64,000 bases of DNA from Planktothricoides raciborskii GIHE-MW2 (GTDB lineage Bacteria; Cyanobacteriota; Cyanobacteriia; Cyanobacteriales; Laspinemataceae), in assembly GCF_040564635.1 (NCBI RefSeq), contig NZ_CP159837.1, positions 6,249,001 through 6,313,000 on the forward strand. The letters run 5' to 3'. The notes under the pieces were generated by a model. It saw nothing but the letters and a program-made list of their open reading frames with translations, was not told the DNA's origin and did no database searches. Below, one piece after another: positions 24,108 through 37,732 of the stretch. Positions within the stretch are counted from its first letter, which is position 1. Each line of letters opens with the position of its first letter. Made by a program: the position numbers and the translations under genes.

Positions 24108-25606
24108 TTATGATTGAGTGTCTAACTCAAGCTGCTTAACCACTTCTTTTTGTTTCTCTGCACTTTTCACCACTTCATAGCTTAAACGCATATTTAATCT
24201 GGCTTGATTTTCAATAATATCTTTAACCGTGACAATCTGAATCTTATCATAACTCTGAGTCATGTATTTACTCCGATAAAATTCAGCATATTTTGCCGTT
24301 TTTAGCATATCTTTGGTGGGATTATCTAAGGTGATATGGCAATACTAGCATTTTCTAGGGTCATGGTTCCGATTAAGTGTCGGATATTTCCGGATTTGAC
24401 TTTCCCAGATTTCACTTGGAAAATTATTTTTTCTGGTTCGTTTTTATCCCCTTGAAAATAGACAACGCCATCAACTCCTTGATCTGACTCCTTTTTGGTG
24501 TTAATGACTGCTCGGTTATTGGTGTAAGTTAAAATTGCCCATTTTTCAAATTATTTTCGAGTGGGATCGTCCGCTTTATTGGCTAAGGCTATGGCATTTT
24601 CTATATCTTTGGGAATCCCATTGAGTTTAATTTGTTCTAATACTCCCTTACCAAAGTATTAGTCTAATCTTTTTAATATTAAACTAATACTTTGGTAGGT
24701 AATATCAATGCCGATCCATTGTCGATTTAATCTTTGCGAAACCGCAACTGTTGTCCCACAGCCACAGTAAGCATCTAATACCATATCATTTTCATTAGAA
24801 CTGGCTTGAATGATTCTTTCTAATAATGCTTCTGGTTTTTGGGTTGGATAACCTAACCGTTCTTTAGCTGATGGTGCAATAATTGGAATTTTCCAAACAT
24901 CAGACATTTTCACTCCTTTAGCATCTTCATCTGTTGTTTGTGAAGGTACTCTTTTTCCGCTTTTGTCATGTCGAGAAACAATCTTTTTACTTCCAAACCG
25001 TTTTAAATTTGATGCAGCACGTTACTCTAAAAGTACGTTAAATAAGGATTTTTTATCATTTTTGGTGTAAAATAAAATTATGTCGTGATTTATAGAAAAA
25101 CTTTTTTCTGCAACTGCCCATTTTTTATAACTCCAGATTATTTCATTTTGAAAATTGCCCATATGAACGCAAAAAACAGCATCTAATACTAATTTTAAAT
25201 AGTGACTAGCTGTTGGATCGCAATGTAAGTAAAAACTGCCGGTAGGTTTTAAAACCCGATGAATTTCGGTGATTCTTAAAGTCATGCTGACCAAATAAGC
25301 CAGCAAACTGCCCTCTCTTAAAACATTCCTTAAGCCTGTAATTAAATCAATGCATTGCTGAGTGAATAAGCCATGATAGTTATCAAAAATTTCATGGATT
25401 CCTTGAATAGCGCGATCGTCCCATTCCCAAGTATCAATAAATGCTTGGGCTTGTGCTTTGTCCTCTGAACCAATATTATTGTAGATTTGATTATAATTAC
25501 CTTTAGAGTTAAAAGGCGGATCGATATAACATAAGTCAACGGACTCATTTTTGATGTAGCGTCTTAAAACTTCTAAGTTGTCCCCGTAATAAAGCTGATT
25601 AACCAT
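24108..25606 (-). pseudogene. Decayed DNA methyltransferase fused to a restriction-type C-terminal domain
   Basis: From ATG 25606 the N-terminal part (194 codons) has the N6-adenine methyltransferase motif IV DPPF and continues to a TAA at 25022-25024. The same frame resumes with RAASNLKRFGSKK, then GYPTQKPEALLERII and DAYCGCGTT (motif I), and stops at TAA 24659-24661. Beyond it, still in frame, come another TAA (24551-24553), DQGVDGVVYFQGD and IIFQVKSGKVKSGN, a Mrr-like D/QxK nuclease signature, and a TAG at 24326-24328. A frame change then leads to ITLDNPTKDMLKTAKYAEFY and the C-terminus at 24108. Four lesions make it non-functional. Intact relatives are single-chain methyltransferase-nuclease proteins. 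Confidence 0.88.
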
Positions 25607-25819: not shown

Positions 25820-25939
25820 ATGAATGTAACAGGAGCTTTACAATTTGCCGATCGCTTAGTGTTTCAGCAAACAGAAAAGCACTTAGATGACTCTCAGAAA
25901 ATAGCTGTAGCTACAATAAATCGGTCGGCTGGGTCTTGA
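25820..25939 (+). pseudogene. 5' fragment of a vWA-MoxR-associated/WD40-type gene
   Basis: The frame starts MNVTGALQFADRLVFQQTEKHLDDSQK, which resembles the N-terminal helix-turn-helix of cyanobacterial signalling proteins carrying vWA-MoxR-associated, AAA or WD40 parts. After about residue 27 it runs into sequence belonging to the opposite-strand vapC and stops. Only the first 80 or so bases survive. It joins the vapC 3' end at about 25902. Confidence 0.6.
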
Positions 25940-26219
25940 TGGGGTAGGGAAATCTGGCGACTTAAAATAGCAATGGCATAATTCATCTCTGCTTCACGAG
26001 TTTTCAGTCTTTTCAAAGCTAAGTTAACCCATGTAATCGGGTCAGGATGTAAAGATATCCGGCCTTTTTCTGCTAAAATCAATGTTTCCCAAATGCTAAT
26101 TGGACTCAGCCAAAGTTCAGTATTAGGATCGGCAATTGCAGTTTGAAGTTGGCTTGATAAGCGTTGGTCTCCCAGTAAATACCACAGCCAAATGTGGGTA
26201 TATCTAGCAGCAGTTTCAT
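25894..26219 (-). pseudogene. VapC-type PIN toxin, frameshifted and 3'-truncated
   Basis: The ATG at 26219 overlaps the antitoxin stop and starts MKLLLD, after which two extra bases (GATATACCCAC where the family needs GATACCCAC) shift the frame. In the other frame the gene continues HIWLWYLLGDQRLSSQL, SPISIWETLIL and DPADRFIVATA, which is clear PIN-domain sequence. The C-terminus after VATA is missing. Both lesions would inactivate the toxin. Confidence 0.85.
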
Positions 26220-26446
26220 TCTAACACCTTCCAGGGCTGAGGCTCTGGAGTAATTATATCTCCTAAAATTTCACCGCTTCCCTTCATTGCCCCAAAAGCG
26301 GGGCGGGGATCTGGGGTAGTAGCGGGATAGATAATCACTAAGGGTTTGCCTTCATGGATGACCGTAATCGGGGTTTTAGTCCGTTCGACTTCTATAAATA
26401 GATTCTGGAGAATTTGGGGCAGTTCATGGGTGGTAATTTCTGTCAT
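26216..26446 (-). CDS. Phd/YefM-type antitoxin
   Basis: The 76-residue product (TEITTHELPQILQNLFIEVERTKTPITVIHEGKPLVIIYP) has the Phd/YefM fold, which binds DNA with its N-terminus and toxin with its C-terminus. It ends with a four-base overlap onto the broken vapC. It is probably orphaned. Confidence 0.8.
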   Translation of the reverse strand: MTEITTHELPQILQNLFIEVERTKTPITVIHEGKPLVIIYPATTPDPRPAFGAMKGSGEILGDIITPEPQPWKVLE

Positions 26447-26748: not shown

Positions 26749-29700
26749 CTAGGGCGCGATCGCCTCAAACTCAACCAACAGGGCCGCCTGTTCTAAAACT
26801 AATTCAACGGCCAGCGCCTGCATATCTGGGGGATAACCATACTCTCGCAAAAGACGTTTAACCATAACTTTCATTCTCGCCTGCACACTGCTTTTGAGGT
26901 TCCAGTCAATACTGGCATTTTGGCGAATTCTCTGCACTAAAACAATCGCCAGTTCTCGGAGTTTATCTTTTCCCATCACTTCCCTGGCGCTGTTATTTTG
27001 GGCTAAAGCCTCATAAAAGGCGAGTTCGTAGGGTTCCAGTCCCAATTCTTCCCCCCGTTGTTGGGCGGTCTGGGTTTCTTTGGCGATCGCCAGTAACTCC
27101 TCAAGTACCTCTGCAACGCCGATCGCTTGGTTCTGATAGCGGCGTAGGGCTTCCTCCAGCATGGCCCAGAGGTGACGACTCTGGACTAATTGGGTGCGAC
27201 TTTTTGCCCGGATCTCGTCCTTTAATAACCGCGTCAAGATTTCTACCGCTAGGTTCTGATGTTCCATCCCCCGCACTTCGGCCATGAATTCATCGGAGGT
27301 AATCGAAACATGGGAGTTTTTGATGCCTGCTTCGTCTAGGATGTTCACCACCGCATCGGACACTAACGCCTGATCCACTACCTGACGAATAGCCATCTCG
27401 ATCTCCCCATTGCTCAATCCGCCGTTGCGAGATTCCAGTTTTTTCAGACTCCCTTGGATAGCTTGGAAAAAGGACACCGCCTCAGCCCGACTCAAGGCTT
27501 CAGGATGGGGAACCGCGAGAGAATAGGCTTTAGAGAGGGCGAGGACTGCATCTTGAAAGCGGCTTTTTCGGCTAGGGTGGGCGATGTAGTTGGTGGCGGT
27601 TTTGAGCAGGTTTAGTTTTGCTCTCGTGTCGGCGGTGTAATAACTTTGGTAGTCACAATCTGCCATAATCTGCTCGACCACCTCCAGTTTAGCCAGAAAC
27701 ACCGCTAAGGCTTGGTCTTGGTCGAGGGTGAGGCTACCTTTGCCGCCACTTTGGGAGTAAAAGGCCAGGGCTTCTTTCAAATAGGCGGCTAAACCCAGGT
27801 AGTCTACAATCAAGCCCCCGGTTTTCTCAAAGTAGACTCGGTTAATCCGTGCGATCGCCTGCATGAGATTATGACCTTTGAGGGGTTTGTCAATATATAG
27901 GGTATGGAGGCAGGGCACATCAAACCCCGTTAGCCACATATCGCAGACGATCGCCAACTCTAGGCAGTCGTCCGGGTCTTTCAGCCGTTGAGCCAGAATT
28001 TGCCGTTGGGTTTTGGTGGTATGGTGGCGGACGAGGGAGGCTTCATCGGCAGCAGAAGCGGTCATCACGACCTTAATTTTTCCCCCTTTGAGCGCGTCAT
28101 CATGCCACTGGGGACGGAGTTTGACGATCTGTTCATAGAGATTAGCTGCGATCGCGCGACTCATCGTAACAATCATCCCTTTTCCTCGGTTGGCGGTTTG
28201 CCGTTGCTCAAAGTGGGTGACAATATCTTGGGCAATGATGGCGAGGCGTTGGGTAGAACCTACAATGGCATCCAGTTGAGTCTGTTTCGCCTTGGCTTTT
28301 TGGGTCTGGTCTAGGTCTTCAAAGGCTAAGTCTTCCTCCAGTTCATCGAGGAGTTGGCGGCCCGTTTCGTCTAAATCTACTTTCACGAGGCGGCTTTCAT
28401 AGTAAATGGGAACCGTGGCCCCATCTTTCACCGCACGGGCGATATCGTAGATGTCGATATAGTCGCCGAAGATAGCCGGAGTGTTTTTATCCCCTTGTTC
28501 AATGGGAGTTCCCGTAAAGCCCACAAAAGTAGCATTAGGCAGGGCATCGCGGATATATTTAGCAAAGCCGTATTTAGTCTGTTTGCCGATTTCGTTTCCT
28601 GCTGCATCTTTGAGAGTGACTTGTCGGGCTTTAAAACCGTATTGGCTGCGGTGGGCTTCATCGGCAAGGACGACAATATTGGAACGGTTGCTAATTTGAG
28701 GATAGAGGGTTTCGTTGTCTTCCGGGGCGAATTTCTGAACCGTGGTAAAGACAATCCCCCCCGACCCCACATTCAGGAGTTCTCGCACTTGGGCGCGGTT
28801 GTTGGCCTGTTGGGGGTCTTGGCGCAGGAGTTGGCGGCATCCGGCGAAGGTATCAAACAGTTGGTCGTCTAGGTCGTTGCGATCGGTGAGAATAACCAGG
28901 GTGGGGTTATCGAGACTCAGGACTAATTTTCCCGCTAAAAAGACCATCGACAGGGATTTTCCGCTTCCTTGGGTATGCCAGAGAACGCCGCCTTTGCGAT
29001 TTTTGGGGTCAGAGGCGGCCCGGTGGACGGAATCCAGGGCTTTATTGACGGCTTCATACTGGTGATAGGCGGCAATTTTTTTTATAGTTTGCACCCTGAC
29101 AATTTCGGTTTCTGGGTTGATGGTTTTGGTTTGTTCAAAAACCGTAAAGTGGCGGATCAGGTCTAAGAGGGTGGCGGGGTTGAGAACTCGTTTAATCAGG
29201 GTTTCCAGTTCGTTTTCTGGGGAGTTGGGGTGGTCGGGGTCTTTCCAAGGGAGAAAGCGGTTATAGTCGGCGGAGAGGGACCCCAGGCGGGCGGTGAGGC
29301 CGTCGGAGACGATCAGCAGGGCGTTATAGGTGAAGAGGTTGGGGATTTCTTGTTTATAGGTTTGCAGTTGGTTAAAGGCACTTTTAACGGTAGCTTGGGG
29401 GTCGGCGGCGTTTTTGAGTTCAATCACTACTAGGGGCAGGCCGTTAATAAATAGGACGATATCCGGGCGGCGTGTGTGGTTGTTTTCGCTGACGGTGAAT
29501 TGGTTAACGGCGAGAAATTCGTTATTTTCTGGGTGTTTCCAGTCGATGAGTTGCAGGGGTTCGCCTCTGGTTTCTCCCTCCCGTTGGTATTCTACGGTGA
29601 TGCCTTCGGTGAGGTATTGGTGGCAGGTTTGGTTATTGTTGAGGAGGTCGGGGGTAGCGATGTTGAGGAGTTGTGTTAGGGCTTGTTGTTGGCTATCGGC

Positions 29701-29889
29701 GGGGATGTGGGGGTTTAAACTGTGGATGGCGTTTTTGAGTCGGTCTATCAGGACAACTTGATTAAAATTTTCCCGTTCTGAGTGGGGGCCGTTGGGTTGG
29801 ATATCGTAGCCGTTGCGGTAGTCGTAACCCAAGGTGGTCAGGTGTTCGAGGGCATTTTGTTCTATAGAGTCTTCGCTAAGGTATGACAT
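26749..29889 (-). CDS. hsdR: Type I restriction endonuclease, R (translocase/nuclease) subunit
   Basis: A 1046-residue motor subunit that translocates DNA and cuts it far from the recognition site. An N-terminal PD-(D/E)XK nuclease (about 142-158, RPDIVLFINGLPLVVIELK) is followed by the helicase core with Walker A GSGKS (308-312) and DEAH (410-413), GFTGTPIEQGD (motif III), and later motifs QAIARINRVY. The frame is complete, with no internal stop. It lies downstream of hsdS on the same strand, but about 530 bp of repeat and MITE separate them, so it may need its own promoter. Its start MSYLSEDSIEQNALEHL is canonical. Confidence 0.96.
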   Translation of the reverse strand: MSYLSEDSIEQNALEHLTTLGYDYRNGYDIQPNGPHSERENFNQVVLIDRLKNAIHSLNPHIPADSQQQALTQLLNIATPDLLNNNQTCHQYLTEGITVEYQREGETRGEPLQLIDWKHPENNEFLAVNQFTVSENNHTRRPDIVLFINGLPLVVIELKNAADPQATVKSAFNQLQTYKQEIPNLFTYNALLIVSDGLTARLGSLSADYNRFLPWKDPDHPNSPENELETLIKRVLNPATLLDLIRHFTVFEQTKTINPETEIVRVQTIKKIAAYHQYEAVNKALDSVHRAASDPKNRKGGVLWHTQGSGKSLSMVFLAGKLVLSLDNPTLVILTDRNDLDDQLFDTFAGCRQLLRQDPQQANNRAQVRELLNVGSGGIVFTTVQKFAPEDNETLYPQISNRSNIVVLADEAHRSQYGFKARQVTLKDAAGNEIGKQTKYGFAKYIRDALPNATFVGFTGTPIEQGDKNTPAIFGDYIDIYDIARAVKDGATVPIYYESRLVKVDLDETGRQLLDELEEDLAFEDLDQTQKAKAKQTQLDAIVGSTQRLAIIAQDIVTHFEQRQTANRGKGMIVTMSRAIAANLYEQIVKLRPQWHDDALKGGKIKVVMTASAADEASLVRHHTTKTQRQILAQRLKDPDDCLELAIVCDMWLTGFDVPCLHTLYIDKPLKGHNLMQAIARINRVYFEKTGGLIVDYLGLAAYLKEALAFYSQSGGKGSLTLDQDQALAVFLAKLEVVEQIMADCDYQSYYTADTRAKLNLLKTATNYIAHPSRKSRFQDAVLALSKAYSLAVPHPEALSRAEAVSFFQAIQGSLKKLESRNGGLSNGEIEMAIRQVVDQALVSDAVVNILDEAGIKNSHVSITSDEFMAEVRGMEHQNLAVEILTRLLKDEIRAKSRTQLVQSRHLWAMLEEALRRYQNQAIGVAEVLEELLAIAKETQTAQQRGEELGLEPYELAFYEALAQNNSAREVMGKDKLRELAIVLVQRIRQNASIDWNLKSSVQARMKVMVKRLLREYGYPPDMQALAVELVLEQAALLVEFEAIAP

Positions 29890-30421: not shown

Positions 30422-31618
30422 TTATTCGGGGATTCGGAGTTTTCCACTCATCAGTTCAGGGAGGAGGGTGTCGCGGGTTTTGGTTAGGGTTTGGATTTGT
30501 TTTGAATTATAAAAAATTTTTTCTCGCACAGTATCAACTAGAGCATGAAAATTATTTAATGTTGTTTCATCAGGTAGTAAAATTTCTGCGATTTCAAAAT
30601 GTTCTGGTTTTACCGCCGGGTAAGCACTCCCTGACGCATTAAAAGTTAGATAATCAACAAAGGTATCAGTTGTTACCCAACCGTAGAGATATGATGCAGG
30701 AATTAAATTAGGTGTTAAGGTAATAAATCCGGTTGATACAACTAAATTTGATACTGGATGAGAGATGTAAAGATATGATTTGCGATTAGGTCTAACGCCT
30801 GACCAAATAACATCTCCATGACTTACTAAACGTCTTGCTCTGCTTGGTGAATCCTTCAAAATATAAGGAGTTGTACTTTCTAATGTTCCAACTCCTACAG
30901 AAGAAATGTCTACATATTCAATATTTTTATGTTTGTAATCTTTGTTGATGCTTTTCGCGTTGATTTCCACAACATCCCCCAACTTACCGACGCGCCAACC
31001 TGCGGGGATTGCGCCTAACTCGGAAGGCTGCATCGCCCCACCGGAGGAGCGATAGGGTTGGCCGTTCTCGTTAGGAAACTCAAAGTCAATAAACCAATGC
31101 TTAAACAGCGTCTGCGCGATTTTTTCTAGGGTTTCGTTTTGTTTTCTGAGGTTTTCGATTTTGCGAGTTAAACTATGAATTAATTTTGTGACTCTAATCC
31201 TTTCTTCCCTTTCTGGCATAAAAATTGGAATTGAAAGCAAATTTTGTAAATTTAATTTTGGTTGCACTGCTCCTGTTATAAAGGGATTTATATTTAATTG
31301 CTGAAAATAATAAAAAATAAATTCATTAACTAAATAATCATTCCCTTGGAGAATATGGGCGTGATTATTCACCCAAAACTTTCCCTCCGCGATAAAAGCA
31401 ATAGTAGTCTGTCTACTTCTTAAATTTTCACCATCTTCTGAAATCAAAACATATTGACCATCAAAAAGATAATCATTAACATAATCAACAATTCCTGAAG
31501 CACCGTAATAAGGATATTTTCCCTGTATTTCAAGTCTTTGTCGAGAGTTTAATGGTATCCGTTTTTTGTTATGAATAGTTGCAATGTCTGATAGTTTATA
31601 CTCCTTCCACTCACTCAT
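30422..31618 (-). CDS. hsdS: Type I restriction-modification specificity subunit
   Basis: The 398-residue protein binds two half-sites of the target. Two target-recognition domains (about 1-150 and 190-350) are each followed by a helical spacer; the first spacer contains FKHWFIDFEFPNENGQPYRS, a signature of HsdS. The first region begins WKEYKLSDIATIHNKKRIPLN. Sequence specificity cannot be read by eye. It starts after the remnant of a second xisI copy and ends just before MITE copy C. The last residues, PELMSGKLRIPE, match typical HsdS ends, so it looks intact. Confidence 0.94.
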   Translation of the reverse strand: MSEWKEYKLSDIATIHNKKRIPLNSRQRLEIQGKYPYYGASGIVDYVNDYLFDGQYVLISEDGENLRSRQTTIAFIAEGKFWVNNHAHILQGNDYLVNEFIFYYFQQLNINPFITGAVQPKLNLQNLLSIPIFMPEREERIRVTKLIHSLTRKIENLRKQNETLEKIAQTLFKHWFIDFEFPNENGQPYRSSGGAMQPSELGAIPAGWRVGKLGDVVEINAKSINKDYKHKNIEYVDISSVGVGTLESTTPYILKDSPSRARRLVSHGDVIWSGVRPNRKSYLYISHPVSNLVVSTGFITLTPNLIPASYLYGWVTTDTFVDYLTFNASGSAYPAVKPEHFEIAEILLPDETTLNNFHALVDTVREKIFYNSKQIQTLTKTRDTLLPELMSGKLRIPE

Positions 31619-31629
31619 AAATCCATCTC

Positions 31630-31697
31630 CTTAATCCACAGCCAACCCAGTATGAGGTCGCACCTCTGGAGGATGAAACCCCAAAACAATCTTATCC
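31630..31697 (-). pseudogene. Remnant of a second xisI (3' end)
   Basis: The minus strand gives IVLGFHPPEVRPHTGLAVD, almost the same as the last residues of the intact XisI (IVLGFHPPEVRPYTGFAVG) at 32054. The rest of the gene is missing, replaced by the antitoxin gene and a palindrome. Confidence 0.85.
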
Positions 31698-31706
31698 TAG
31701 TAATTG

Positions 31707-31731
31707 TAGGGTGGGCAATGCCCACCCTACT
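31707..31731. repeat. Palindrome GTAGGGTGGGCA/TGCCCACCCTAC
   Basis: A near-perfect 25-base palindrome in the gap before the antitoxin gene. The same GTAGGGTGGGC core recurs near 7699, 23843 and 24020. It may act as a two-way terminator. Confidence 0.75.
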
Positions 31732-31778
31732 CCTGCGCGACTATAATCAAGGTAGTCCATAACGCTCCTACTGGTGCC

Positions 31779-32015
31779 ATGAACCTATCACTCACCCCAG
31801 AAATAGAACAACGGATTGCGGATCAACTCAACTCAGGACATTATCAATCCGCCCATGAGGTCATCTTAGCCGCCCTAGAACTCCTGAACCAACGCCAGCA
31901 ATACCTGACTGAACTGCGTCAGGAAATCGCGATCGGTGTTACTCAAATTGAACAGGGACAAGTGATAGATGGAGAACAGGTCTTCGATCTCATCAATAAT
32001 TTAGGGAATCCATAA
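31779..32015 (+). CDS. ParD-like (CopG/CC2985) antitoxin
   Basis: A 78-residue ribbon-helix-helix protein (LSLTPEIEQRIADQLNSGHYQSAHEVILAALELL) of the ParD type, which dimerises on DNA and blocks a ParE-type toxin with its C-terminus. No ParE-like gene follows: the last codons (NNLGNP) run into a copied piece of the xisH/xisI junction, so the 3' partner was probably lost in a duplication event. It is on the plus strand, opposite to the restriction locus. Confidence 0.8.
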   Translation: MNLSLTPEIEQRIADQLNSGHYQSAHEVILAALELLNQRQQYLTELRQEIAIGVTQIEQGQVIDGEQVFDLINNLGNP

Positions 32016-32037
32016 CTCCACAACCTCCTGTTGTGCA
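31993..32037 (-). pseudogene. Copied xisH end/xisI start junction
   Basis: On the minus strand this reads VFDAQQEVVELWIP then stop, matching the intact XisH end (VFDAQQEVVESWIP) at about 32374-32418 and including the overlapping xisI start region. It marks the right edge of a duplicated xisHI segment into which the antitoxin gene came. Confidence 0.82.
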
Positions 32038-32053
32038 TCAAAAACTCATAAAT

Positions 32054-32386
32054 TCAACCCACCGCAAACCCCGTATAAGGTCGTACCTCTGGAGGATGAA
32101 ACCCCAAAACAATTTTCTCTGGGGGAATTCCTGCTCGTAACAAATCATCCGCTATCCCATCCTCTAAACCGTCCTCATGAATCCAAACTTTATCCCCCAC
32201 AACCTCCAAATGAACAATACAAGCATGAACCCGCTTTCCATTCACATCTCCCACCGTCAATAACAAATAATTCTGATGGTCTTCTGCAATAACTAGCTTT
32301 CGCTGTAAATTGCCGTGAGCATAAGGTAATTTTGCATACTCTTCTAAAATTTCTTTGATTATTCGATAATAATTTAGGGAATCCAT
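32054..32386 (-). CDS. xisI: XisI-family protein
   Basis: The 110-residue protein belongs to the XisI (fdxN-element excision controlling factor) family, known from heterocyst-forming cyanobacteria as a helper of the XisF recombinase but present in many copies in strains without that element. Characteristic parts are IIKEILEEYAKLPYAHG, QLVGW-like VVGDKVWIHEDGLEDGIADDLL and PPEKIVLGFHPPEVRPYTGFAV. It overlaps xisH by 13 bases, so the two are translated together. Its position within a type I restriction locus suggests a role outside fdxN excision. Confidence 0.9.
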   Translation of the reverse strand: MDSLNYYRIIKEILEEYAKLPYAHGNLQRKLVIAEDHQNYLLLTVGDVNGKRVHACIVHLEVVGDKVWIHEDGLEDGIADDLLRAGIPPEKIVLGFHPPEVRPYTGFAVG

Positions 32387-32790
32387 GACTCCACAACCTC
32401 CTGTTGTGCATCAAAAACTAGCAAATTAAAACGCTGATTTTTTAGTAAAATTTCTCCAATTGGTTCTTGAAAAAGGGTTTCAAAAACATCCTTAGTAATA
32501 GCTAGGTAAAGTCTTCGGTTTGGATCGATATCCCGCATAATATCAGAATATAAAGTATATTGACCCAACGCATTCTCTAAATCATTAACCCGTGACTTGC
32601 CGATAAAACTCTTAATTTCTACTGCAATTTTTTGCTCATCTTTATCGGCAGAAAGTAACTTTTCTGCCCCCAAATCTACAAATAAATCTCTAGATCCGAT
32701 ATTCAAGATATAAGGATCGTTAGTAATAGTCCACCCTTCCTTAATTAAAGCATTTCTCACCGCATCATGGTAAATATCCTTAGCAGGCAT
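32374..32790 (-). CDS. xisH: XisH-family protein
   Basis: The 138-residue protein matches the XisH family: [27 protein letters not shown], then DLFVDLGAEKLLSADKDEQKIAVEIKSFIG, and FLEQALGQY-like DLENALGQYTLYSDIM. The D and ExK spacing (VDLGAEKL, VEIKSF) is that of a PD-(D/E)XK nuclease fold, which fits known ideas on XisH. Its ATG overlaps the hsdM stop (TAATG), and it overlaps xisI at the other end. So hsdM, xisH and xisI are one coupled unit. Confidence 0.92.
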   Translation of the reverse strand: MPAKDIYHDAVRNALIKEGWTITNDPYILNIGSRDLFVDLGAEKLLSADKDEQKIAVEIKSFIGKSRVNDLENALGQYTLYSDIMRDIDPNRRLYLAITKDVFETLFQEPIGEILLKNQRFNLLVFDAQQEVVESWIP

Positions 32791-34406
32791 TAATCCCCCT
32801 CCTCAATTTTAAACCCCACCTTTGCCAACTGCCGCTTAATTTCCTCATCCAAAATTGCCCCCTCCCGCATTTGTTCCCCTAACTCTTGGGTTAACTCTGC
32901 CATCTGCTCCTCAAACAGAATCCCATCGTCCTCCTCATCAGGAATCCCCACATAACGCCCCGGAGTTAAAACAAAATTGTGCTTTTCAATCTCTGCCAAC
33001 TTTGCCGACTTACAAAATCCCTTAATATCGTGATATTTGCCCCCCTTCCGTTTCCATTGATGATAAGTCTCGGCAACCTTAGCGATATCTTCATCGGAAA
33101 ACGCCCGATTGCGGCGATTCACCATATACCCCAACTCCGAGGCATCGATAAATAAAACCTCTCCCCGACGTTCCCGGTTTCGATTGCCGTTTTTGCGACG
33201 ACTCAGCAACCACAAACAGGCCGGAATCCCCGTATTAAAAAATAACTGGGTGGGTAACATAACAATACAATCCACTAAATCCGCCTCTACAATAGCGCGG
33301 CGAATTTCCCCCTCTCCTCCCGTATTAGAAGATAAGGACCCATTGGACAAAACAAACCCCGCGCTGCCTGTCGGTGCCAAATGATAAATAAAATGCTGTA
33401 CCCAAGCAAAATTAGCATTTCCTTCTGGGGGAACTCCATACTGCCAGCGTCCATCTTTCCGCAACAGTTCCCCACTCCAATCACTATCATTAAAAGGCGG
33501 ATTCGCTAAGATAAAATCGGCCTTTAAATCTGGGTGAGCATCATTGAGAAAAGACCCCTCCCCATTCCATTTAATCTGAGAGGTATCAATTCCCCGAATG
33601 GCTAAATTCATCTTGCACAGTCGCCAAGTCGTCTCGTTGCTCTCCTGGCCGTAAATGGAGATATTATCCATTCGGCCTCGATGGTGCTGGACAAATTTTT
33701 CACTCCAGACGAACATTCCCCCGGACCCACAGCAAGGGTCAAACACCCGCCCCTCGTAAGGTTCGACCATCTCCACCAATAATTTCACAATACTTTCTGG
33801 GGTGTAAAACTGTCCCCCTTTCTTCCCTTCTGCGAGGGCAAATTCTCCCAGGAAATATTCATAAACGCGGCCTAATATATCCCCTTGGCTGAGTTTTTGC
33901 GCGTTTTGGTCTAAGTCTAGGTTCAGTTGTTCGGCGGTGGCTTTGTTGTCCCTGACTAATTTAGCACTACCGATGAGGTCGATTAATCCCCCCAAGGAAC
34001 TTTTATCCAGTTTCTGCTGGGCGTAGACTTTGGGTAAAATCCCTTTCAGGTGGGGGTTTTCCTGTTCAATGGCGGTCATTGCGTCATCAACTAACTTGCC
34101 GATATTCGGCTGTTTTCCCTGAGCTTGGAGAAAGAACCAACGGGCCTTTAATGGCACAAAGAATACATTCTCGGCGAGATACTCGTCTTTGTCCTCCGGA
34201 TCCGCGCCTTGATACTCTTCCTCCCCTAAAATGAGTTTTTGGTGCAGCACTTCAAAGGCATCCGAGATATATTTCAGGAAAATTAAGCCCAGAACAATAT
34301 GCTTGTACTCTGCCGCGTCCATGTTTTTGCGGAGTTTGTCGGCAGACTTCCAGAGCTTTTGTTCTAAGGTTTCGTTGGTTTTGGGTTGAGCTTGTTTTTT
34401 CGGCAT
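32790..34406 (-). CDS. hsdM: Type I restriction-modification methyltransferase subunit
   Basis: The 538-residue N6-adenine methyltransferase protects host DNA together with HsdS. The helical HsdM N-terminal domain ([20 protein letters not shown]) is followed by the catalytic domain with motif [12 protein letters not shown] near residue 222 and motif IV NPPF near residue 305. [19 protein letters not shown] precedes motif I as usual. It is first in the minus-strand order hsdM-xisH-xisI-hsdS-hsdR, and its stop overlaps the xisH start. The frame is intact. Confidence 0.95.
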
Positions 34407-34522: not shown

Positions 34523-34614
34523 TAATTGATAATTGATAATTGATAATTAATAATTAATAATTAATAATTAATAATTAATAATTAATAATTAATAATTGAT
34601 AATTGATAATTGAT
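34523..34614. repeat. STRR array, heptamer TAATTGA/TAATTAA
   Basis: About 13 head-to-tail heptamers, changing from TAATTGA to TAATTAA and back again to TAATTGA. Confidence 0.95.
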
Positions 34615-36062: not shown

Positions 36063-36710
36063 TTAGTTCTGGTCGTTACCTCTTTCCTGGTCAAAGTACC
36101 ACCGAATCGGCTGACCGGCACCGGGACCAAGATTACGATAGCCGGTTAATTTATACCGCACCATATCGCCAAGAGTAATTTCAAAATAGCGAATACGTTT
36201 CTTACTGGAAAAATTTCTTGCCCGACGTAGTGGCCAATTGTCAAATATAGAGAGACCATCACTGGACTCAGGGGTGGGCGTGGGCGTGGGCGTAGGCGTT
36301 TCCGTAGGCGTGGGCGTCGGCGTTACCGTAGGTGTCGGCGTCGGCGTTGGGGTTGGCGTTACCGTAGGCGTCGGCGTCGGCGTTGGGGTTGGCGTTACCG
36401 TAGGCGTCGGGGTCGGGGTCGGGGTTGGCGTTACCGTAGGCGTCGGGGTCGGGGTCGGGGTTGGCGTTACCGTAGGCGTCGGGGTCGGGGTCGGCGTTAC
36501 CGTAGGCGTTGGAGTTTCTGTCCCACCCAAGTTAGGATTAAGTGGTGACGTGGGGGTTGTGGGCGCAGGTGACACCGGAGAATTTTGTGCGTTAGCTGGA
36601 GTGGTGGATCCCACTACTGTGGAGATCGCGCCAGCAGCGGCGACTAAACCGCTGATAACCAAGTTTTTGACTGGCGCTTTTAGATTGGAGAATCGCTGTT
36701 GTTTGTTCAT
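36063..36710 (-). CDS. Secreted Thr-Pro repeat protein
   Basis: I start at ATG 36710 ([34 protein letters not shown]), which gives a good Sec signal peptide ending near PANAQ; the frame continues to 36785, but those residues look spurious. The product has about 215 residues. The middle (about 62-150) is built of [10 protein letters not shown] repeats, an extended, probably glycosylated or wall-spanning stalk. A C-terminal domain ([36 protein letters not shown]) is basic and conserved-looking. Likely a cell-surface protein of unknown role. The DNA repeat will vary in copy number. Confidence 0.72.
36270..36515. repeat. Variable in-frame repeat of the Thr-Pro stalk
   Basis: Units of 30-36 bp built on GGCGTTACCGTAGGCGTCGG and GGGGTCGGGGTC lie head to tail, coding TVTPTPTP-type units on the minus strand. 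Confidence 0.9.
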
Positions 36711-37732
36711 AGTCCAAAATCCCGCAATAAACCCAATATGGTTGGGGAGGAAACGAGGCGGGTTGATAGCGTTTCCTGTGGACATTGGTGTCGGGCTTAC
36801 TTGGACATTAGATGGCCAAATAATTCGACGGATCTGGACTCATTCCCTTCGCAAGAATATAAACACTCGTTGAGAGAAAAATACCAAGAACTGAATCACC
36901 CTATCTGAATGAATAATGTTCAGATGCGGTTGTGCGATCGGTTGCCCTAGCTAGATCCTTTGGATGGCTTTGGTTGACTCTTGGATCGCGAAAGATGCAC
37001 GATCGCACATCATTTCCCAGCAAATGTCATTCACCCTATCTTCATCTTCATGGGGTGCGGACAAACTTCAGGAATATTGCTTATTTTTTTGACCCAAGCA
37101 TTTGGTAACTCAAAAAATCAATCTTATTTTGTCAGTAAAGCTTGATTTGGTCGGTTATTCGGAAGCTGGTGGCATCAACTAGCGATCGCTGATCGAGCGG
37201 TTTAAAATTTGTCCTATCATTACAACCTTGACAAATATTTGTTAGTTTATTTGTTAGGTTATTCGTGAGGTAAATTATTGGTTAAGTAAATTTGTCCAGA
37301 AAGGAATGACTACAGAGGTCAACCTCAAACACCAAAGGGTGGAAAGATGGTGTGCGATCGCTCAACTTAAGGCAAAACTTCCTCTGCCTAAGTTACTGAA
37401 TCATTACCGAAAAATATTTAGGATATTTAGGCAAAAATTTAGGACAAACAAAATTGGCGAAAAACATTAGTTGGCGATCTCGTTTGACCTCATGCTTGCC
37501 AAAGATCATTTTTGAAATTTTCCTTAGAGGGAAAATATGTTTTGGGTAGCGATGTAGACAATGAAAGCTTTAAATGAATCTTACTTAGTCAAGAACTTAG
37601 TCAATCTAGGATTTAGTCTCCACTTATAGGGGGGGGTGGGCGATGCCCACCTAAATGGTTAATCGTTACGTTGTATTGCTTTGACAATATCTCCTGGATT
37701 TCAGGTAGTCAAAGGTACACGATTTGGTTTTC
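36711..37732. other. Long gap between two envelope-protein genes
   Basis: About 1 kb with no supported ORF; mixed composition, a few HIP1 sites and a GTGGGCGATGCCCAC palindrome near 37637-37651. The left side should carry the promoter of the Thr-Pro repeat gene. Confidence 0.55.

Follow-up and report, generated by a model that had tools for sequence, protein, structure and literature searches.

The protein families XisH (PF08814) and XisI (PF08869) are known from the fdxN element of Anabaena, where the published role of the pair lies in excision of that element (PMC4874684). Outside heterocyst formers the function of the pair has been termed undisclosed, and in Lyngbya the pair shares a transcript with the unrelated gene hoxW (PMC2674450). 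A Thiomargarita genome is reported to carry four xisH and seven xisI genes (PMC4853749), a survey of toxins places XisH and XisI among the domains found near injection-system genes (PMC11297309), and restriction operons are known to contain HEPN and RhuM genes (PMC3710099). Here we analyze an xisH-xisI pair (xisHI) located inside a type I restriction-modification (hsd) operon of Planktothricoides raciborskii GIHE-MW2, in a 64,000-nucleotide stretch of contig NZ_CP159837.1 (positions 6,249,001 to 6,313,000; hereafter the window). With a probability of roughly 0.57, comparison of sequences leads us to regard xisHI as a toxin-antitoxin-like nuclease/inhibitor module carried along by a mobile type I operon, and not as a restriction subunit. 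Within its excerpts, the literature retrieved on XisH together with toxin-antitoxin systems contained no proposal of such a role, and the searches returned nothing joining XisH with hsdM, nor fdxN-element excision with restriction-modification.

The operon comprises the following genes:

32790-34406, minus strand: hsdM, type I methyltransferase subunit, 538 aa (Pfam N6_Mtase 6.5e-110, HsdM_N 2.3e-24)
32374-32790, minus strand: xisH, 138 aa (Pfam XisH 7.8e-55; PDB 2okf/2inb about 1e-33)
32054-32386, minus strand: xisI, 110 aa (Pfam XisI 6.9e-35)
30422-31618, minus strand: hsdS, specificity subunit, 398 aa (Pfam Methylase_S 1.5e-28)
26749-29889, minus strand: hsdR, restriction/translocation subunit, 1046 aa (Pfam HSDR_N, SWI2_SNF2, T1RH-like_C; PADLOC REase_I 1170.8 bits)

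The gene order hsdM-xisH-xisI, followed by hsdS and hsdR, and the overlaps described in a first-pass annotation of this DNA are confirmed by open reading frames (ORFs) and Pfam matches: a TAATG at 32790 joins hsdM to xisH, with one base shared between stop and start codon, and a 13-base overlap (32374-32386) links xisH to xisI. By Pfam and PADLOC the type I set of HsdM, HsdS and HsdR appears complete. The pair has the form of two small, overlapping, co-directional genes expected of a toxin-antitoxin system, and its 13-base overlap is frequent in the family, being present in all four listed pairs and in four of eight annotated plasmid pairs, the other four having annotated overlaps of 25-34 bases. 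For comparison we fetched 140 loci, mostly of about 10 kb and some ended by contig edges, with 13 of them from the window's genome (the window's own locus excluded) and 127, anchored on XisH, from elsewhere. A close upstream gene is uncommon among the 137 full xisH genes, two of which follow by 2-3 bp the end of a same-strand ORF of at least 80 aa; three more are overlapped over 26-74 bp by upstream ORFs of 84-108 aa, which may be spurious.

The pair decays asymmetrically. Full xisI accompanies 135 of the 137 full xisH in the fetched loci, and the two exceptions carry an open xisI with an insertion (L071) and a frameshifted xisI (L156). From the other side, the same loci hold 150 full xisI, for which xisH is partial in 11 instances and absent in four. 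Anchoring on XisI instead, with one locus per genome (n=30), xisH covered more than 85% of its profile in 20 cases, was a fragment or contained a stop in seven and was missing in three, compared to a full xisI in 29 of 30 matched XisH-anchored loci, again one per genome (Fisher p 0.006, with coverage cut-offs that differ slightly between the two sets, 0.85 and 0.9); the thirtieth, judging by its place, is L071. A toxin gene is expected not to be kept without its antitoxin, the reverse being allowed, and this is the pattern found (135/137 against 10/30 XisI loci lacking a full xisH). Adjacent full genes follow the order xisH-xisI in 166 cases, xisI-xisI in five and xisI-xisH in three; the five tandem xisI pairs have no counterpart in tandem xisH, of which none was seen among adjacent full genes.

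Decay extends to copies inside hsd operons. In Planktothricoides SR001 (L200, identical over 3411 bases to L416 of genome G212) the reading frame of xisH is interrupted by a stop and its catalytic E is replaced, next to hsdM, hsdS and hsdR genes that can still be read; a stop also interrupts the xisH located between hsdS and hsdR in L430, and an internal deletion runs through both xisH and xisI in L201. Two loci, L344 and L370, retain an xisI without xisH, and the 33 synonymous and 17 non-synonymous changes between these solo genes yield a dN/dS of 0.08; some of this signal may date from before xisH was lost. To judge from these loci, XisH is expendable to the hsd operon, and xisHI apparently decays like a toxin-antitoxin pair in which xisI often outlives xisH.

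At the protein level, window XisH matches the PF08814 profile at positions 1-133 of 134 (7.8e-55) and XisI matches PF08869 at positions 1-110 of 110 (6.9e-35). The D and ExK motifs of the PD-(D/E)XK fold, which the first-pass annotation had read in XisH, are present as D39, E58 and K60, together with Q77 and Y81 of a QxxxY motif, and the fold matches agree. As would be expected of catalytic residues in a toxin, these putative active-site positions are conserved almost throughout the family (D39, E58 and Q77 in 137 of 138 sequences, K60 and Y81 in 138 of 138). Besides XisH structures (2okf_A, Z 22.0), the XisH model matches PD-(D/E)XK-type proteins beyond the family, namely AF1548 (Z 8.7), a CdiA-CT toxin (8.1) and EndoMS (7.9), with Z values of about 8 that are modest and also reached by common fold arrangements. 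Modeling thus supports a PD-(D/E)XK-type fold for XisH, making it a predicted nuclease.

The module is abundant. The window's genome contains eight full-length xisH plus several broken ones, and 11 full or nearly full xisI, plus a further, frameshifted one and fragments. In 194 genomes drawn from the phylum, XisH is found in 63 and XisI in 64 (E 0.001), with about 410 XisH and 522 XisI matches in all (summed by hand, fragments included, among the matches listed, at most the best 20-22 candidates per genome), and window XisH is matched in 317 of 388 Cyanobacteriales genomes. Plasmids carry an xisHI match in 38 of 72,556 records, all cyanobacterial except one from Herpetosiphon. No match was obtained among 50,697 records of a phage collection (tblastn, 1e-5) or in viral contigs, the latter searched with one protein as query, which reaches close relatives only; a phage origin of xisHI, lacking a match in either set, is unsupported. 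The first-pass annotation's view of the pair as mobile is upheld, and we regard xisHI, on these distributions, as an apparently dispersed and mobile cyanobacterial module.

A survey of xisHI neighborhoods, proposed earlier as a check on the linkage with restriction genes, gave different answers from the two sides. Starting from xisH, neighborhoods are largely random, an outcome that the first-pass annotation had counted against its own reading: type I hsd genes lie within the fetched 5 kb at one of the 127 loci outside the window's genome (L177, with hsdM, hsdS, xisH, xisI and then an HsdR-like match at 1e-9), and a general hsd linkage of xisHI is rejected. Starting from hsd, 60 loci were fetched around HsdM_N matches in XisH- or XisI-bearing genomes, 59 of them HsdM by profile (two from the window's genome; about 15 other listed matches, plus unlisted ones, were left out). 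A same-strand xisI lies inside the hsd span in three of these 59, against 0.079 expected under a uniform model (P(>=3) 8e-5) or a fivefold expectation that limits insertions to a fifth of the genome (P 0.008). The three are L373, on the Euhalothece plasmid pEu2, arranged hsdM-xisH-xisI-Uma2-hsdS-hsdR, and the solo-xisI loci L344 and L370, where xisI sits between hsdS and hsdR. L344 and L370 are orthologous, with the same kind of hsdM, hsdS and XisI; merged as one, they leave two events, with P about 0.003 (uniform) or 0.06 (fivefold). L371 does not enter the count; there the end of an xisH lies at the edge of the stretch, about 2 kb beyond hsdS.

Further linked cases reached from other anchors (SR001, L201, L415, L430, L177 and L280, in which an hsdS tail alone precedes xisH) stand outside this enrichment test. 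Three of the 29 loci nearest to window XisH have hsd genes in their 1.5-kb flanks (L415, L416, L430), neither xisH nor xisI occurs in any of 30 HsdM loci with 1.5-kb flanks, and among 80 HsdM relatives from species genomes (14 cyanobacterial) two, L200 and L201, have xisHI or a remnant. In a XisI tree based on distances only, with support values unexamined and L415 and L430 left out, the linked XisI (window with SR001; L177; L373; L344 with L370) have their nearest neighbors in four parts. A single hsd-specific XisI clade is therefore unsupported, and hsd operons appear to have received xisHI repeatedly. Other genes share this location: of 173 ORFs located between hsd genes, 150 entered a domain scan after removal by hand of 23, most of them short or doubtful, with those of L200 and L201, giving PIN 19, NTP_transf_2 13, Uma2 8, HepT 7, DUF4926 5, FitA-like 5, XisI 3, ParE 3, RhuM 2 and HigB 2. 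By these domain matches xisHI would be one among many toxin-antitoxin-type passengers of cyanobacterial hsd operons.

Some neighborhoods deserve separate mention. On plasmid pAQ6 (L403), xisHI lies between HigB/HTH and CopG/PIN genes, followed by VapC/AbrB; a DUF1156 protein and a helicase border this cluster. At L164:4627-8510 and L180:1230-5399 (the latter in the window's genome), xisHI stands beside a same-strand protein of 959 or 1117 aa with a weak HsdM-profile match (4e-9 and 7e-9). At L344:6610-11030 hsdM is split into a short N-terminal ORF and a 1168-aa ORF with HsdM sequence at its end, a layout that would fit an insertion into the gene.

The closest view of change inside the operon comes from L415, a locus from another family whose HsdM is identical to that of the window at 482 of 499 positions. 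On its minus strand the order is hsdM-xisH-xisI-xisI-xisI, with three tandem xisI behind one xisH (L415:426-1531). The three copies are 55-56% identical in their N-halves and 92-97% in their C-halves; the first is of the SR001 type and the third of the window type, the window xisI region showing 97.6% nucleotide identity to L415 over 377 bases, and the spacers of the array contain xisH ends with AGGAGG. Aligned with SR001, the window is a mosaic: hsdM is nearly identical (57-60 of 60 per block) and so are, completely, the first 60 bases of xisH, after which identity falls to 73-80% and then to 48-63% from mid-xisH to mid-xisI, before climbing back to 95-100% across the xisI 3′ half, while hsdS differs in most parts and is 80-100% identical near 31000-31180. 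The hsdM-xisH coupling is kept as TAATG in the window, SR001 and L415, and also in L201. The high identity across families suggests a recent transfer of the operon, and from these three sequences the window and SR001 could be alternative collapse products of an L415-like array, formed via the shared 3′ halves.

The window retains traces of a second unit:

31995-32057, minus strand: xisH end with AGGAGG and first codons of a second xisI (92% identity to 32368-32430)
31615-31696, minus strand: last codons of a second xisI (identity to the xisI end 80% across 82 bases and 87.5% across 64)
31779-32015, plus strand: ParD-like antitoxin ORF, 78 aa (Pfam ParD_antitoxin 4.2e-07)

The duplicated xisHI copy that had been described as adjoining the pair is thus reduced to two remnants, with the ParD-like ORF lying antisense between them inside the former unit, and an intact second copy is rejected. 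The remnant at 31615-31696 stops about 15 bases before hsdS and shares 83% identity with the corresponding junction of L201. Around the operon, a DNA methylase apparently split over two ORFs lies downstream of hsdR (24659-25606, with N6_N4_Mtase at 8.8e-15 in 25022-25606); upstream of hsdM there is a short AT repeat array with 14-base spacing (34523-34599), gapped in the SR001 alignment, and at 36063-36785 a protein without any Pfam match carries a long PTPTPTV-type repeat. Pfam scans of the ORFs at 26219-26446 and 25897-26082 and of the ORF behind the L415 array returned no family.

We propose that XisH would act as a PD-(D/E)XK nuclease toxin and XisI as a co-translated inhibitor obliged to accompany it. 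The module would settle at many sites, here in the spacer between hsdM and hsdS of a type I operon that would have spread horizontally, where xisH may be read by translational coupling to hsdM. From this spacer, which would also house other toxin-antitoxin cargo, xisHI could make loss of the operon costly. Extra xisI units could build up into arrays and undergo recombination between their near-identical 3′ halves, by which a variable block, formed by the XisH core with the XisI N-half, would be swapped or collapsed. A broader form of this proposal, which we rate somewhat short of even odds, would make xisHI an unrecognized toxin-antitoxin family, very numerous in Cyanobacteriales, with multi-antitoxin arrays; in hsd operons xisI variants would build up and recombine, exchanging a matched XisH-core/XisI-N-half specificity block, the role in the fdxN element being a domesticated one. 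A bolder extension is that solo XisI between hsdS and hsdR may have been recruited to restrain the HsdR nuclease.

Several points weigh against the toxin-antitoxin-like proposal. The published role of the pair is the excision role cited above, and PADLOC has no model matching XisH or XisI. The XisI model matches XisI structures at Z 12.8-15.0, with the next row at 5.8, so that its structure matches stand out for XisI alone and include no known antitoxin, which is a matter of absence only. Window XisI deviates at four of 13 nearly invariant family columns (34, 47, 62, 74) and may for this reason be impaired. XisH proteins with D39N (L098) or E58K (L080) keep a full xisI; at L156:5001-5800, in the window's genome, a short insertion frameshifts xisI, and among 138 XisH sequences Q77 is changed in that of this locus alone, which, given those two loci, is a single coincidence. 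On the counting side, besides the unequal coverage cut-offs, four of the 15 xisI without a full xisH (L185-L188) are own-genome loci chosen for XisI or for a broken xisH, and L299, counted as full among the 20 XisI loci, has a stop in xisH. Finally, solo xisI under purifying selection could have a job of its own.

The alternative closest to the first-pass annotation, which had suggested a partner or accessory role in restriction, is that XisH serves the type I enzyme as an additional nuclease, or that XisI restrains the HsdR nuclease, the pair tuning restriction. HsdR carries ExK and QxxxY-type motifs, which those of XisH resemble; same-strand embedding among hsd genes recurs in four XisI groups plus further cases, above chance, and solo xisI is conserved between hsdS and hsdR. 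Against this stand the single hsd-linked locus among 127 anchored on XisH and the 56 of 59 HsdM loci in xisHI-bearing genomes that have no xisI in their span. A subunit role in particular fits poorly, because xisH is broken in SR001/G212 and L430 and absent beside the xisI of L370 and L344 (the latter with its hsdM split); regulation of the restriction enzyme by XisI alone may still apply. We consider a restriction partner unlikely; linkage by itself shows none, and xisHI seems to behave like toxin-antitoxin cargo diversifying inside hsd operons.

Slightly less probable is a neutral passenger that arrived by chance, contributes nothing and decays. The decayed pairs in L201, SR001 and L430, the remnant in the window and the scatter of linked XisI over separate groups all suit it, as does the weak enrichment obtained with two events under the generous model (about 0.06). 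It accounts less readily for three embedded cases against 0.08 under the uniform expectation, for the conservation of XisH motifs, for the hsdM-xisH coupling kept in the window, SR001, L415 and L201, and for the dN/dS of solo xisI, even if part of that signal may be older than xisH loss. Improbable, too, is a guardian resembling PrrC, which is embedded in an hsd locus and released upon inhibition of the enzyme (PMC3710099, PMC12707154): xisHI likewise lies among hsd genes and could arrest the cell once a phage inhibitor disables the restriction enzyme, but most xisHI copies have no hsd genes nearby, and XisH, with 138 aa, consists of the XisH domain only, a different fold from the HEPN nuclease-ABC NTPase fusion of PrrC-type guardians. 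Very improbable is a helper of serine recombinases in element excision, as required for the fdxN element (PMC4874684). In its favor, a single match to the large-serine-recombinase family PF07508, a possible XisF, lies about 55 kb away in the window's genome, outside the window; against it, this one match faces eight full xisH in the genome (recombinases were not sought at other loci), and xisHI lacking xisF has been reported for Beggiatoa and others (PMC4853749).

Current annotation labels XisH and XisI 'excision controlling factors'. If the nuclease/inhibitor proposal is true, many such labels would change, the requirement for xisHI in fdxN excision would gain a testable mechanism, and restriction operons would allow the diversification of such pairs to be followed; the L415 array offers natural cognate and non-cognate partners for comparing specificity.

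Compared with known systems, the window pair shares families and gene order with XisH and XisI of the Anabaena fdxN element and differs in lying inside an hsd operon, where no fdxN element or XisF was identified, no search for an fdxN-type element having been made; the absence of such an element, as read in the first-pass annotation, is a presumption. Like PrrC of EcoprrI and the HEPN and RhuM genes of restriction operons (PMC3710099, PMC12707154), it places a potentially self-harming gene among hsd genes; PrrC is a HEPN RNase with an ABC NTPase, whereas XisH is of the PD-(D/E)XK type with a separate partner, and xisHI is not specific to hsd operons. With a plain type I operon the window has hsdM, hsdS and hsdR in common, and its spacer adds xisHI, the remnant of a second unit and the ParD-like ORF. 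The comparison with type II toxin-antitoxin systems differs in that the structure matches of XisI include no known antitoxin fold and that toxicity and neutralization by XisHI are putative. In HigBA the toxin gene comes first. Like such systems, xisHI is a small overlapping pair present in many copies and on plasmids, with orphan and tandem second genes, and it occurs in hsd spacers alongside known toxin-antitoxin genes.

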